This document shows, one piece after another, positions 34,756 to 43,455 of a stretch of 64,000 nt of DNA. The notes beneath the pieces were generated by a model. The model had not been told where the DNA came from, did no database searches, and saw nothing but the letters and a program-made list of their open reading frames with translations. Source of the DNA: Maribacter algarum (ex Zhang et al. 2020) (lineage in GTDB: Bacteria; Bacteroidota; Bacteroidia; Flavobacteriales; Flavobacteriaceae); contig NZ_VATY01000002.1 in the NCBI RefSeq assembly GCF_005885635.1, forward strand, positions 930,001 through 994,000, written 5' to 3'. The translations under genes and the position numbers were made by a program. Every line of letters begins with the position of its first letter. Within the stretch, counting starts at the first letter, position 1.

Positions 34756-35466
34756 TTACTTGGTTTGTGTCATTTCTGCCAAAGCAAAATCCACAGCAGC
34801 CTGAGCATGAATCTTAGTAGTATCAAAAACGGGAATGTCACAATCTTCCGATTGAATCAATAACGGGATTTCAGTACAGCCTAAAATAGCTGCTTCTGCG
34901 CCATTACTTTCTGATTTCTTGATGATTTCAACGTACTTAGCCTTTGAATCCTTAGAAATAATCCCTTTCGACAATTCATCATAAATTACCTGATGAACCG
35001 TATCCCTATCTTCCGAAGATGGTATCAATACTTCAATTCCAAATTGTTCTTTTAAAATATCCTTGTAAAAGTCTAACTCCATAGTATATTTTGTACCTAG
35101 TAGCAATACTTTTTGAATTCCTTTATCCTGTATTGATTTGCCCGTTGCTTCTGCTATATGTAAAAGCGGAACATTTATGTTCTCTTTGATTTTATCAGCA
35201 GATAAGTGCATTGTATTTGCGCACACCAAAATAATATCGGCACCCGCCGTTTCTAAACTCTTGGCAATTGTGGCCATTTGGGTATGTAGGGTATCCCAGT
35301 CGCCAGCACTTTGTTTCGCGGAGATATCCGCAAAATTTACCGATTCTATTAAACAACTACAAGAATATTTCCCGCCAAGCGCTTCAGAAACCATTGTATT
35401 TAAATATTCGTAATAAAGCTTGGTCGATTGCCAAGTAATGCCACCTATTAAACCTATTTTTTTCAT
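34756..35466 (-). CDS. aspartate/glutamate racemase family protein
   Basis: Racemase of 236 residues. Both catalytic cysteines of the family are visible: C82 in VCANTMH and C197 in ILGCTEIPLL. The N terminus MKKIGLIGGITWQST is typical of the YgeA-like group, which racemises various amino acids. It sits inside the his operon, 9 bases after hisF, though it has no role in the histidine pathway. Substrate cannot be predicted. Confidence 0.85.
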   Translation of the reverse strand: MKKIGLIGGITWQSTKLYYEYLNTMVSEALGGKYSCSCLIESVNFADISAKQSAGDWDTLHTQMATIAKSLETAGADIILVCANTMHLSADKIKENINVPLLHIAEATGKSIQDKGIQKVLLLGTKYTMELDFYKDILKEQFGIEVLIPSSEDRDTVHQVIYDELSKGIISKDSKAKYVEIIKKSESNGAEAAILGCTEIPLLIQSEDCDIPVFDTTKIHAQAAVDFALAEMTQTK

Positions 35467-35475
35467 AACTCCAGC

Positions 35476-36231
35476 TTATATTCTTACAGGAATTTTGTTT
35501 TCCTGTAATTCTTCTTTTAAATCCTTGATTTTTATCTCCTTAAAATGAAAAACACTAGCCGCTAGGGCTGCATCAGCCTTTCCTTTAATAAAGGTATCTG
35601 TAAAATGTTGCATATTTCCTGCTCCACCCGAGGCTATTATGGGAATATTCAACTCTGTAGATAGTCTTGCCAGCGCTGCATTCGCAAATCCGTCTTTAGT
35701 ACCGTCATTATCCATGGAGGTAAATAAAATTTCACCAGCACCTCTCTTCTCTACTTCTTTAGCCCATGCGAACAAATCCAATTCCGTTGGGACTTTACCA
35801 CCCACCAAATGAACAACCCATTTACCTTCAATTTGTTTCGCATCAATAGCAACGACAATACATTGGGAGCCAAACTTAGCCACCAAATCATTGATCAATT
35901 GTGGGTTCTTAACCGCAGACGAATTGATAGAAACCTTGTCCGCTCCGTTTTGCAATAAAACATCTACATCTTCGACAGATGAAATTCCACCCCCCACCGT
36001 AAACGGAATATTCACTTTTTCGGCCACACGAAATACGAGGTCGGCCAAAGTTTTTCGTTTTTGTTCCGTAGCTGATATATCTAGAAATACCAGTTCATCT
36101 GCACCTTCTCGACTATATATTTCCGCTAATTCTACGGGGTCACCAGCATCTCTCAAATCAACGAAGTTCACTCCTTTTACAGTGCGGCCATCTTTGATAT
36201 CTAAACAAGGTATGATTCTCTTTGCAAGCAC
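35476..36231 (-). CDS. hisF: imidazole glycerol phosphate synthase, cyclase subunit
   Basis: (beta/alpha)8 barrel of 251 residues that closes the imidazole ring with ammonia from HisH. Catalytic D11 ([10 protein letters not shown]) and D130 (VVAIDAKQ) are in place, with the phosphate loops [10 protein letters not shown] and [10 protein letters not shown]. Standard length. Its ATG overlaps the DinB stop by one base. Confidence 0.97.
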
Positions 36232-36749
36232 TAGTCCTCGTTTTTTATTTTTAAATCAATTCCGTCATAGAACCCAAGGTCTTTGTTTTTGAGCTGTTTT
36301 ACCCAAAAAGCAATTTGACCCGTATGATAAGAATAATGTTCGACGGCATGCATTATGACACCAACACCTGAAAATGAAAACCCTTGCACCGATCTAATTT
36401 TTAAGAGTTGATCCAAGGAAGAATCGAAAATCACCCGCTTGGCTGTGTCTACGGTGCTTTCTAATTTTTCAAGTATTTCTGATTTAGTTCCACTTTTGTT
36501 TGTCTCAAACTCCAAGTCACGCTTTCGAATGTCTTCAGTTTCTCCAAGTGATGAGATGATGTACTGTGTGATATTTCCACATAAATGCAACATCAAATTG
36601 GCAATGCTATTTAGGGAATCGTTGGGCTTTTGCCATAATTCTTCCTCCGAAACATCTTCTAAGCTCTTCCGTATCATGCGTGTGCTTTCATCTATACGAT
36701 ATAAAGCATTTTTCACTAATTCATCGACTAGTTTCTCTTCCTTGGTCAT
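36231..36749 (-). CDS. DinB-family (four-helix metal-binding) protein
   Basis: Protein of 172 residues predicted all-helical, with the DinB/DUF664 pattern: [16 protein letters not shown]-like helix containing His, and [20 protein letters not shown] with three His at about 134-141. These typically bind a divalent metal. Relatives include thiol-dependent enzymes, but many have no known function. Embedded between hisA (4-base overlap) and hisF (1-base overlap) and so surely coexpressed with the his genes. Confidence 0.85.
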
Positions 36750-37526: not shown

Positions 37527-37952
37527 TTAATCTAGTTTCTGTTTATCTCTGGACATCCACAATGGGGATTTTCCGATTTTTGTAAAGCCATATTTGTTAT
37601 ATAGTCCATGTGCATCTTTTGTTTTTAATGACAAGGTTTGTAGGCTTTGAATTGTTTCTTGGCTCAACATAAATTCTATCAATGCTGTCCCTAAGCCTTG
37701 ACCCTGATATGCTGGACTGATAATTACGTCCATGATATTTCCATAAAAGGTGTAATCGGTTACAACTCTAGCAAAGCCGATCTGCGCGTTTTCATTTGTA
37801 TACATTCCAAAACAAAAAGAGTTCTCAATAGTTCCTTTTGTTTGTTCTAAAGTTCTACCCTTTCCCCAATAAGCGTCGTTGGTCATATAACTCTGAATAA
37901 AATCAATGTCCAATAAATTCTTATCCACCGATATGTAAAAACCTTCTCTCAT
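37527..37952 (-). CDS. GNAT-family N-acetyltransferase
   Basis: Acetyltransferase of 141 residues. The acetyl-CoA loop is [19 protein letters not shown] (about 78-96), preceded by the strand [12 protein letters not shown] and followed by [19 protein letters not shown]. The C terminus SPLWMSR is common in this subgroup. It lies between hisH (1-base overlap) and hisA (1-base gap). Acceptor unknown. Confidence 0.88.
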
Positions 37953-40715: not shown

Positions 40716-41995
40716 TTCAAACTATTCAATCGTAAGGTTACGGCATTTTTATGGGCCTGTAAGCCTTCAGCTTCGGCCATGATTTCAATGGCATTCCCTA
40801 TTTCTTGTATACCTTCTTTTGAAATCTTCTGGAAGGTCATGCTCTTCATAAAACTATCTAAGTTTACACCACTGTACTGCTTCGCGTATCCGTTTGTAGG
40901 TAAGGTATGATTAGTGCCAGACGCGTAATCTCCTGCGCTTTCTGGGGTGTAATTACCGATAAAGACAGAACCAGCATTGAACGTATTATGAATATAGAAA
41001 TCTTCGTTATCGACACATACGATATAGTGCTCTGGCCCATATTCATTGATTAAATCAATTGCGGTTTTATCATCTTCAACATATATCAGTTTACTATTGG
41101 CCATTGCCTTTTCAGCAATCCGTTTTCTTGGTAAAAGATTGATTTGTTTATCCAATTCCACTTCGACGGCTACTAAAAAATCTATTGAAGTTGAAACTAA
41201 AATCACTTGACTATCTACCCCGTGCTCGGCTTGGCTCAATAAGTCTGAAGCTACGAAAGCAGCGTCAGCTGAATCATCAGCAACAACTAACAATTCACTC
41301 GGACCGGCAGGCATGTCAATGGCTACGCCATACTTTGTTGCAATTTGTTTTGCAACGGTGACATATTGGTTACCTGGACCAAATATTTTATAGACTTGTG
41401 GAATGCTTTCCGTACCAAATGTCATTCCAGCAATGGCTTGAATACCTCCAACTTTGAAAATATTAGTAACTCCACATAAAGCCGCGGTATATAAAATAGC
41501 GGGATTGATTTTTCCATCCGAATTAGGAGGTGAACATAAAACGATTTCTTTACAACCTGCTATGCTAGCAGGAACTGCAAGCATTAGAATTGTAGAAAAT
41601 AAAGGCGCTGTTCCTCCAGGAATATACAAGCCAACCTTCTGGATCGGACGTTTTTCTTGCCAACATTTTACGCCTTTTGCAGTTTCTACTTCCACTTTAT
41701 CTGTTACTTGAGCTTTGTGAAAACTTTCAATGTTTCCCTTCGCCAATTGAATAGAAGCTTTTAGTTCTTCTGACACCAAGTTTTGAGCTTCTTCTATTTC
41801 CTTTAAATCGACCACAAATGAATCCAAAGTAACACCATCAAACTTTTGGGTATATGTTCTTAAAACAGCATCTCCACCTGCTTGAGTCTCCTTGAAAATG
41901 CCATTTACTGTATCCTCAATGTCCTCGACGGACTGAGTGGGTCGCTTTAATACCTCACTCCAACTTTCTCTTTTCGGATTGTATATTTTATTCAT
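40712..41995 (-). CDS. hisD: histidinol dehydrogenase
   Basis: NAD-dependent zinc enzyme of 427 residues for the last two steps of histidine synthesis. Signature regions are LYIPGGTAPLFSTILM, IFGPGNQYVTVAK, DMPAGPSELLVVAD and LLSQAEHGVDSQ, with GPEHYIV and SAGDYASGTNHTLPT. Overlaps the GNAT gene by 8 bases. Confidence 0.97.
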   Translation of the reverse strand: MNKIYNPKRESWSEVLKRPTQSVEDIEDTVNGIFKETQAGGDAVLRTYTQKFDGVTLDSFVVDLKEIEEAQNLVSEELKASIQLAKGNIESFHKAQVTDKVEVETAKGVKCWQEKRPIQKVGLYIPGGTAPLFSTILMLAVPASIAGCKEIVLCSPPNSDGKINPAILYTAALCGVTNIFKVGGIQAIAGMTFGTESIPQVYKIFGPGNQYVTVAKQIATKYGVAIDMPAGPSELLVVADDSADAAFVASDLLSQAEHGVDSQVILVSTSIDFLVAVEVELDKQINLLPRKRIAEKAMANSKLIYVEDDKTAIDLINEYGPEHYIVCVDNEDFYIHNTFNAGSVFIGNYTPESAGDYASGTNHTLPTNGYAKQYSGVNLDSFMKSMTFQKISKEGIQEIGNAIEIMAEAEGLQAHKNAVTLRLNSLK

Positions 41996-42440
41996 TGCTT
42001 ATGTCTTCAAAATTCATGAAATAATGGTACGCCTTGGGCTTATACCCTTGTCGTTCCCAAAATTTTTGCCCCTTTTCATTTTTCATATAGCAGTTCACTT
42101 CTGAACCTTTACAGCCTATTTCTTTGGCATACTTGAACATATAATCCATCATAAGTTGTCCTACGCCTCTACTCCGATATTCTTCTTTTATAAAGACATT
42201 ATCCGGCTCTACGTGCTTGCCTGCATAGAGTTTATTCAATACCCAAATTCCACAAATACCAATCAATTCTTCAGAATCATAGACTCCTATGCATTCATAG
42301 CCTCCCATGGATAACATGTCTTTAAGTCTTTCTTTAAGAACTTCGTACCGAATTTTCTCATTATTGAGCAAAAAAACGAGTGGCAAAATAGATTCCATAT
42401 ATTCATAAGGAATTAACTCTATTTTAAAATCGGAATTCAT
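41988..42440 (-). CDS. GNAT-family N-acetyltransferase
   Basis: Acetyltransferase of 150 residues with acetyl-CoA loop FIKEEYRSRGVGQLMMDYMF (about 84-103) and the C-terminal EKGQKFWERQGYKPKAYHYF. It is placed between hisG (3-base gap) and hisD (8-base overlap), so it is part of the his transcript. Not related closely to the other GNAT in the operon. Acceptor unknown. Confidence 0.88.
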   Translation of the reverse strand: MNSDFKIELIPYEYMESILPLVFLLNNEKIRYEVLKERLKDMLSMGGYECIGVYDSEELIGICGIWVLNKLYAGKHVEPDNVFIKEEYRSRGVGQLMMDYMFKYAKEIGCKGSEVNCYMKNEKGQKFWERQGYKPKAYHYFMNFEDISNE

Positions 42441-42443
42441 ATA

Positions 42444-43301
42444 TTAAAGGACCATTTTTTCAATTGGGCAAACCAAAATACCTTCAGCTCCTGCTTGCTT
42501 TAGCTCATCAATAACCTCCCAGAATTTGTCCTTGTTGATTACGGTATGTACAGAACTCCAACCTTCTTCCGCTAAAGGAAGTACCGTCGGACTGCGCATA
42601 CCGGGAAGCAAGGCAATAACATCTTTCAATTTATCATTAGGAGCATTCAGCAACACATATTTTGATTGTCTTGCCTTCAAAACAGATTGAATGCGGAATT
42701 GTAGCTTCTGAAGCACTAGTTTTCTTTCTTCAGAAATTTTCGGAGATACGGCCAAAACGGCTTCACTTTTCAACATGACCTCGACTTCTTTCAAGTTGTT
42801 CTTGAACAAAGTACTTCCGCTTGAAACAATATCGCAAATGGCATCAGCTAGTCCGATATTAGGGGCAATCTCTACAGAACCACTAATGATATGTAGATCC
42901 GCATTTACCCCTTTCTCTTTCAAATAGTTTTTAACAGTATTCGGATATGACGTTGCAATTCGTTTCCCTTCAAAATCCTTTACAGAGTCATACTTAACAG
43001 CTTTAGGAACAGCCAAAGAAACCTTACACTTTGAAAAACCAAGTTTTTCCGCAACAGCAATGTCCTCACCTTTTTCAATTAATACATTCTCTCCGATAAT
43101 TGCAATGTCTACTACTCCATCTCTTAAGTATTGGGGAATGTCTCCATTTCTAAGGTAAAACACCTCCATTGGAAAGTTCCGCGAAGAAGCCTTCAATTGG
43201 TCTTTACCATTATCAATAGATATTCCACAATCTTTTAAAATCCGTAAAGAATCCTCATTAAGCCTTCCGGATTTTTGAATAGCAATTCTAATTTTTGTCA
43301 T
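42444..43301 (-). CDS. hisG: ATP phosphoribosyltransferase (long form)
   Basis: First enzyme of histidine synthesis, 285 residues from the ATG at 43301 (MTKIRIAIQKSGRL). The open frame runs on to a TTG at 43346, but that lies in the attenuator terminator and is rejected. Catalytic domain about 1-210 (DIAIIGENV, and DAICDIVSSGSTLFKN, the PRPP loop). A C-terminal ACT-like domain (about 212-285, SPTVLPLAEEGWSSVHTVI) allows feedback inhibition by histidine, so no HisZ is needed. First structural gene after the attenuator. Confidence 0.96.
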   Translation of the reverse strand: MTKIRIAIQKSGRLNEDSLRILKDCGISIDNGKDQLKASSRNFPMEVFYLRNGDIPQYLRDGVVDIAIIGENVLIEKGEDIAVAEKLGFSKCKVSLAVPKAVKYDSVKDFEGKRIATSYPNTVKNYLKEKGVNADLHIISGSVEIAPNIGLADAICDIVSSGSTLFKNNLKEVEVMLKSEAVLAVSPKISEERKLVLQKLQFRIQSVLKARQSKYVLLNAPNDKLKDVIALLPGMRSPTVLPLAEEGWSSVHTVINKDKFWEVIDELKQAGAEGILVCPIEKMVL

Positions 43302-43345: not shown

Positions 43346-43414
43346 AAACCCGCTTGATTGCTCAAACGGGTTTAAATATTTTGTAATACTACAATACACC
43401 TTTACCTCGCTTGA
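43346..43414 (-). promoter_or_regulatory. his attenuator: antiterminator and terminator segments
   Basis: On the RNA: segment 2 UCAAGCGAGGU (43414-43404), segment 3 AAACCCGUUUGA (43373-43362) and segment 4 UCAAGCGGGUUU (43357-43346). Segments 3 and 4 form a 12-bp stem with one G-U pair and a 4-base loop, followed by UUUUGCUUUU: a terminator. Segment 2 imitates segment 4 and can pair with segment 3 instead, with one bulged A. Segment 2 overlaps the last codons and stop of the leader peptide, so a ribosome at the stop masks it. Confidence 0.85.
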
Positions 43415-43455
43415 CAGCCAGTTACAAGATGATGATGTGTATTCTTATTTCTCAT
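43402..43455 (-). CDS. hisL: histidine operon leader peptide
   Basis: ATG at 43455 to TAA at 43402, 17 residues: MRNKNTHHHLVTGCQAR. Three consecutive His codons (all CAU) at positions 7-9 act as the histidine sensor: when charged tRNA-His is scarce the ribosome stalls there and leaves the antiterminator segment free. About 100 bases upstream of the hisG ATG. No Shine-Dalgarno is visible, as is usual in this phylum. Confidence 0.85.
   Translation of the reverse strand: MRNKNTHHHLVTGCQAR

Follow-up and report, generated by a model that had tools for sequence, protein, structure and literature searches.

Layout of the region upstream of hisG

Is the histidine operon of Maribacter algarum preceded by a complete ribosome-mediated attenuator, as a first-pass annotation of this DNA had proposed, and which RNA segments would take part in it? 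The enteric his attenuator consists of a leader peptide with His codons, alternative 2:3 and 3:4 helices and a terminator before hisG. We examined the window, that is, the whole 64,000-nt stretch of DNA that was analysed; all coordinates are window positions (1-64,000), and the his features lie on its minus strand. The features discussed below are as follows.

44340-43525, minus strand: SPFH/Band 7 gene (Pfam), with its 3′ end ~70 nt upstream of the leader
43476-43469, minus strand: candidate -7 promoter box TAATTTTA, one mismatch to TAnnTTTG (by eye; consensus from PMC9723704)
43455-43402, minus strand: leader ORF MRNKNTHHHLVTGCQAR, 17 codons, ATG at 43455, stop TAA (read from the sequence)
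43443-43436, minus strand: segment 1, strand AATACACA of the predicted 1:2 protector helix (fold and pre-His/post-stop pairing test)
43437-43429, minus strand: tandem run of three His codons (CAT CAT CAT), which presumably do the sensing (sequence)
43415-43404, minus strand: segment 2, GTCAAGCGAGGT, putative antiterminator strand over the last codons and the stop of the leader (pairing tests, GCG bias)
43399-43385, minus strand: post-stop strand of the predicted 1:2 protector helix, GTGTATTGTAGTATT (fold and pairing test)
43373-43361, minus strand: segment 3, AAACCCGTTTGAG, terminator 5′ arm with the first base of the loop, which could pair with segment 2, 4 or 5 (fold, covariation)
43357-43346, minus strand: segment 4, the 3′ arm of the terminator; an interrupted T tract comes after it (fold, covariation)
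43328-43316, minus strand: segment 5, GATTGCCTCAAAC, complementary to the terminator 5′ arm and loop with one bulged C (duplex shuffles, loop covariation)
43301-42444, minus strand: hisG, first gene of the his operon, ATG at 43301 (Pfam HisG, HisG_C)
41988-42440, minus strand: GNAT acetyltransferase within the his operon (Pfam)
37527-37952, minus strand: second GNAT acetyltransferase within the his operon (Pfam)
36231-36749, minus strand: DUF1572/DinB-like protein within the his operon (Pfam)
34756-35466, minus strand: probable aspartate/glutamate racemase within the his operon (by eye only)

Downstream of hisG, Pfam matches identified hisD, a hisC-type gene, hisB, hisH and a hisA-type gene, while hisF and hisI were recognized by eye. 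The operon (43301-34152, minus strand) also has interspersed genes that do not obviously belong to the histidine pathway. The candidate box at 43476-43469 may be a -7 promoter box, and no matching upstream box to go with it was seen by eye. The terminator stem (43373-43346, minus strand) has 12 pairs and a loop of 4, and its T tract is interrupted (TTTTGCTTTT). The 131-nt stretch carrying the leader and the terminator folded better than 200 of 200 shuffles (z = -3.88).

The His-codon leader is conserved in the family

All letters quoted in the first-pass annotation were found in the window, including the three tandem His codons at 43437-43429. We rejected this run as evidence by itself: CAYCAYCAY has five exact matches in the window against 3.2 expected, and at least five were reached in 24 of 100 shuffles, which is not above chance. 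Since the run alone is within chance, conservation was needed to decide. HisG was present in 99 of 120 same-family genomes (98 of 119 genera), and all 99 upstream regions were taken. A His-containing leader before a terminator was found in 96 of the 99 by a script that looks for an ORF with neighbouring His codons, and a terminator upstream of hisG in 98, all but L051. A stricter script (ATG start and two adjacent His, terminator not required) returned a leader in 94 of 99. As for the three loci missed by the first script, L051 offered just 129 nt of sequence to search, L013 shows on inspection by eye this same leader, but starting at GTG, and L096 has by eye an ORF with two separated His. All 80 of the named relatives examined by script (Maribacter, Zobellia, Arenibacter, Flagellimonas, Aquimarina, Kordia and others) likewise have both leader and terminator. 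They are the best-scoring 80 of 526; two of the 80 repeat loci of the first set, and three loci of the pooled sets are duplicates.

The same-family leaders contain 3 to 6 His residues in 94 of 96 cases (3-5 in 92), and their longest His run is 3 or 4 in 79 of 96. The earlier remark that this leader has only three regulatory codons is accurate for the window, but three is the low end of the family range.

A covariance search across Flavobacteriaceae had been suggested along with the original claim. Our model was built from the 74 leaders of alignment A1, which holds 74 of 138 non-redundant leaders and omits several divergent ones, those numbered above L099, and L037, L044, L045, L062, L071, L073, L081, L085, L087, L089 and L097. 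It matched 135 of 149 family genomes at E up to 1e-3 and 123 of 149 at E<1e-8 (manual count), with a single match each except in G329 and G048; the Maribacter algarum genome itself gave one match only. In a class-wide sample, matches were found in 72 of 197 genomes and were mostly weak, with eight genomes outside the family having a match below E 1e-8 (manual count). Two assemblies showed other arrangements. In G027 (L306) a strong leader match comes without any match to HisG; on inspection by eye, the leader stands ahead of a truncated hisG start that runs for a few tens of codons only, and no his gene was recognized among the four ORFs listed there. G329 (L307, L308) carries two strong leader copies in one assembly, and one of them has, by eye, no following hisG start in the stretch inspected.

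These data bear on a rival explanation, in which the hairpin serves merely as the terminator of the SPFH gene, hisG is transcribed from a promoter located past the hairpin, and the short ORF is a chance frame. It is true that the SPFH/Band 7 gene, which has the same orientation as hisG, ends shortly before the leader, and that three His codons are within chance expectation in the window. However, a chance frame would not be expected in 96 of 99 same-family loci, nor should its end co-vary with the terminator arm, as described below. Moreover, in several genomes (L081, L087, L089 and L096 among them) no more than about 15-25 nt separate the terminator from the hisG start, which leaves little room for a promoter of its own. 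We consider this explanation very improbable.

The leader end co-varies with the terminator arm

The leader end had been claimed to overlap a segment able to pair with the terminator 5′ arm, and we confirmed that segment 2 can pair with segment 3, with one bulged A. In the window this segment reads GTCAAGCG instead of the CTCAAGCG of most loci, so that the 2:3 helix is one pair shorter. Among the 74 aligned leaders, the terminator helix 3:4 has 10 consensus pairs, five of which show double changes. The 2:3 helix, set by hand in A1 as ten pairs and one bulge, was paired in 89.3% of cells compared with 18-47% in slid controls. This share is barely over the column-shuffle value of 88.1%, because the columns are conserved; double-change cells numbered 12 against a shuffled mean of 4.9, and none of 500 shuffles was as high. 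The number of pair types, reached by 65 of 500 shuffles, gave a weak signal, and half of the sequences (37 of 74) cannot form the outermost 2:3 pair.

We also employed a register-free test, in which each leader's own partner is compared with partners from other loci by a permutation that ignores phylogeny. At the 96 family loci, the 2:3 pairing scored -13.0 with its own partner and -11.75 (sd 0.17) with permuted partners (z = -7.6, uncorrected for phylogeny). The difference was larger at 24 loci of other families, with -13.8 against -8.7 (sd 0.62; z = -8.1, again uncorrected for phylogeny), and 13 of the 24 reached p<0.05 against shuffles. These 24 are the loci, out of 50, that have a leader, a terminator and the usual spacing; the other 26 were dropped and L115 was left out, L120 is of the family type, and the script-chosen leaders of L225 and L227 are doubtful. 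Most of the 24 leaders are unlike that of Maribacter algarum, for example MKKHLHIHHHAVPQG at L214, and their ends still match the terminator arm. L120 (G269), labelled as belonging to the same phylum and not to the same class, has a family-type his leader with segment 5, and its HisG is 62% identical to that of Maribacter algarum, which may reflect transfer or misplacement.

A further helix, 1:2, joins the strand before the His codons to the strand after the stop. Since its register shifts between clades, it was tested register-free rather than by fixed columns. Own against permuted partners supported the helix at the 96 family loci (z = -7.1), and the signal was weak outside the family (z = -3.0, 4 of 24 at p<0.05), both values being uncorrected for phylogeny. 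In columns 53-67 of A1, the leader end can additionally fold on itself into a small hairpin, UUGC-xCUCAA-GCGA, which would be a competitor of 2:3; the base of this hairpin varies jointly in some loci (CTTGC/GCGAG, TTTGC/GCGAA).

The leader might instead act through its peptide, as an arrest peptide, or through reinitiation, with no alternative RNA folding. A C-terminal (C)xQA(R/S/K/N) is indeed common in the family. However, 76 of the 103 Ala codons within the final four positions of the leaders are GCG, compared with only 188 of 1491 in hisG, a bias that points to constraint on the RNA rather than on the peptide, and leaders of other families keep the complementarity with different C-termini. 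Reinitiation is further opposed by the leader stop, which in family loci lies mostly 20-35 nt upstream of the terminator and does not adjoin hisG. Action through the peptide or through reinitiation is thus highly unlikely.

Proposed attenuation of the his operon

The leader, the terminator and the 2:3 pairing of the proposed attenuator are all in place before the his operon and are kept in relatives through base changes, with a His-codon leader before a terminator at 96 of 99 same-family loci and covariation in both 2:3 and 3:4. The sequence-based refuting condition named in the first-pass annotation, a lack of conserved His codons or of conserved 2/3/4 complementarity in relatives, was not borne out. 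On these grounds it is highly likely that the Maribacter algarum his operon is under the control of a ribosome-mediated transcription attenuator. The parts and pairings of the three-part switch drawn in the first-pass annotation are supported, although that scheme missed the 1:2 helix and segment 5.

For ribosome stalling, termination and the histidine response in this leader, we infer the following course from the sequence. RNA polymerase would transcribe the leader with a ribosome behind it. When histidyl-tRNA is scarce, the ribosome would stall on the His codons, opening the 1:2 helix and leaving segment 2 free to pair with segment 3 while segment 4 has yet to be transcribed; the terminator would then not form, and the operon would be read. 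When histidyl-tRNA is plentiful, the ribosome would reach the stop codon and cover segment 2, the 3:4 helix would form and transcription would stop. If the leader is not translated, the 1:2 helix would hold segment 2, and termination would again be expected.

Equilibrium folding into hisG, with a ribosome masked on the His codons, was rejected as a demonstration of the switch, as 3:4 stayed dominant over 2:3 (mean P(3:4) 0.78-0.84, mean P(2:3) 0.05-0.06). Since 3:4 beats 2:3 at equilibrium, the switch would have to rely on kinetics; under the classical model it is enough for 2:3 to form before segment 4 is made, and the equilibrium fold is therefore no refutation. A covarying hisG attenuator across Flavobacteriaceae, with similar logic but other sequences in some further families of the phylum, implies that transcription-translation coupling and the sensing of amino acids both function here, and this coupling would operate in bacteria without Shine-Dalgarno initiation.

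A fifth segment between the terminator and hisG

Segment 5 (43328-43316) is separated from the hisG ATG by 14 nt in the window, where its duplex with the terminator arm and loop was better than 200 of 200 shuffles. Complementarity of this kind reached p<0.01 in 44 and p<0.05 in 59 of 97 testable family loci (200 shuffles), and among the named relatives (best 80 of 526) it reached p<0.02 in 29 and p<0.05 in 39 of 79 testable loci (100 shuffles). The summed score of 83 loci was -931 with their own partners and -711 (sd 18.5) with permuted partners (z = -11.9, uncorrected for phylogeny). Because the arm is also fixed by its pairing in the terminator, the loop was tested alone. In 174 loci, 3.16 of five loop positions paired with the locus's own segment 5, compared with 2.36 (sd 0.064) after permutation; the values were 2.66 and 2.15 (sd 0.074) in 119 loci after removal of loop/segment repeats, and 3.05 and 2.19 (sd 0.143) in 44 loci when one locus per loop type was kept.

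Neighbouring loci with differing loops were then compared in pairs, using the loci with the full six-base anchor (132 of 172) and judging leader similarity by shared 5-mers, not by a tree. The own combination of loop and segment 5 was better in 43, worse in 4 and equal in 3 of 50 non-overlapping pairs, from which three duplicate loci had been removed. Before this removal the result was 45 for, 3 against and 3 ties in 51 pairs, and a looser anchor gave 42 better, 6 worse and 11 equal of 59.

In 79 strong cases, segment 5 starts a median of 13 nt after the terminator (10th-90th percentile 9-19) and ends a median of 16 nt before hisG (15-25). An anchoring of segment 5 to the start codon rather than to the terminator was rejected, as both distances are about equally narrow. 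Many loci have no segment 5, and it is missing where the hisG start is close to the terminator. Outside the family, segment 5 was found at two same-order loci (L116, L117) and at L120, while none of the other outside-family loci in which leader and terminator were found reached p<0.05 for it. Folding without pseudoknots gave a mean 3:5 share of 0.05-0.08 in 57 loci, with 0.36-0.49 in the window and 0.65-0.72 at L015. In most of the duplexes listed for strong cases, the complementarity stops short of the CCC of the arm, and an end at this point would let the lower terminator stem persist, in the form of a pseudoknot.

Pairing of segment 5 with the hisG start region (5:6) was discarded as a general feature: the own score of -5.26 against -4.39 (sd 0.16) for permuted partners in 113 loci was carried by few of them. 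The signal lay mainly in 12 loci starting ATGAGTAAA (-8.1 against -4.5 for shuffled sequences), and the 67 loci starting ATGAC were near background (-4.7 against -4.3).

Since segment 5 is transcribed only after the terminator, a simple model gives it no influence on whether that very molecule is terminated, which suggests a post-transcriptional role. In the read-through mRNA, segment 5 would be able to pair with segment 3 and the terminator loop, in many relatives as well as here. Our preferred guess, offered tentatively, is that it controls hisG translation in cis. Translation initiation in F. johnsoniae is associated with little RNA structure between about -20 and +20, and the position of bS1 has been put near nucleotides -12 to -15 (PMC6847099); on these grounds, a helix at about -15 could tune hisG translation. 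The terminator 5′ arm and loop might then be a hub with three rival partners (segments 2, 4 and 5), through which histidine status sets both read-through and hisG translation initiation, a scheme that we regard as a fair possibility, though less likely than not. If true, one leader peptide would control the his operon twice, at transcription and at hisG translation. The repZ pseudoknot of plasmid ColIb-P9, in which an upstream loop pairs just before the start codon under the control of a leader reading frame, resembles this arrangement by analogy only, and repZ belongs to plasmid replication control.

Two other accounts of segment 5 have to be weighed against control of hisG translation in cis. 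It may serve only mRNA stability or processing, or be a functionless by-product of repeated terminator-like sequence. This account, which we hold to be a considerable possibility though short of an even chance, agrees with the weak 3:5 equilibrium pairing in most genomes, with the absence of segment 5 where hisG begins near the terminator, and with the similar spread of both distances, by which position alone does not tie the segment to the start codon. However, the co-variation with the loop argues for selection on the pairing and against a by-product, and distances to the ATG are cut off sharply below 15 nt. Alternatively, a released terminated leader RNA could pair in trans, via its terminator loop, with the hisG 5′ UTR of the full-length mRNA; the complementarity does take in the terminator loop, which would be exposed in the terminated RNA. 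This is rather unlikely, because the full-length mRNA has the same loop in cis at what we reason to be a much higher local concentration, and the terminator stem sequesters a large part of the complementary arm.

Comparison with known attenuators

No Rfam family, the T-box model included, reached its gathering score in the window, and at E up to 1 there were just two weak matches, both to unrelated families. The enteric His_leader model (RF00514) had no matches in the Maribacter algarum genome. The two systems have in common a His-codon leader, the 2:3/3:4 alternatives and a terminator before hisG, and the Maribacter algarum leader differs from the enteric one in the missing model match, in its 3 His codons and in the extra segment 5.

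In PMC2965389 and PMC9413887, leader-peptide attenuation is reported from Proteobacteria, Actinobacteria and some Firmicutes. Among the Firmicutes, candidate his attenuators have three to five His codons in a row before alternative hairpins (PMC9413887), and the Firmicutes hisS and hisZ leaders also carry runs of His codons (PMC2965389); these share the His-run leader with Maribacter algarum and belong to another phylum. The main text of PMC9413887 and PMC2965389 contains no word beginning with 'Bacteroid'. The first-pass annotation had called attenuation little studied in the phylum of Maribacter algarum, which is fair, but a Flavobacteriaceae hisG element had already been noted: in F. psychrophilum, structured 5′ elements without Rfam hits, conserved in Flavobacteriaceae, were reported upstream of hisG and other genes, the hisG element occurring in further genera as well, with 'strong clues' for leader-peptide attenuation at amino-acid operons (PMC9723704). 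That hisG 5′ element is very probably the same as the Maribacter algarum his leader, and the hisG attenuator as such is foreshadowed by that report, whose section on the hisG element gives no anatomy, no segment 5 and no distribution outside the family. In the open-access literature we found no earlier account of the anatomy of the attenuator, its occurrence in other families or segment 5; a prediction for Bacteroidetes by Vitreschak or Lopatovskaya and colleagues (2004, 2010) is possible. What is new here is segment 5 between the terminator and hisG, co-varying with the terminator loop, a concrete addition to a mechanism that is usually drawn with four segments.

Upstream regions of trpE and ilvD

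From 31 family genomes we collected 29 trpE loci (L246-L274), with L275 dropped as a weaker paralogue match. All 29 upstream regions, that of Maribacter algarum included, have TGGTGG in a short stretch together with a terminator, and two or three Trp codons in the leader region. TGGTGGTGG occurs in 27 of 29, Maribacter algarum included, whose trpE leader (L259) reads MKKRNRNTWWWNNSRQIS, and an ATG-started leader was found by script in 28 of 29. The 2:3 co-variation was weaker than in the his leaders (own -9.7 against permuted -9.0, sd 0.28, n = 28). These candidate trp attenuators resemble the his attenuator in having a leader with codons for the cognate amino acid and a terminator, and segment 5 was seen in none of the 14 testable loci. 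Attenuation in the family is thus probably not confined to the his operon, as judged from these sequences. Upstream of ilvD, inspection by eye of 29 stretches revealed no comparable codon run with a terminator for a leader. A TTGAATATGATAAAA-like stretch recurs by eye upstream of ilvD in several genomes (L276-L300), where it stands without a repeated-codon leader.
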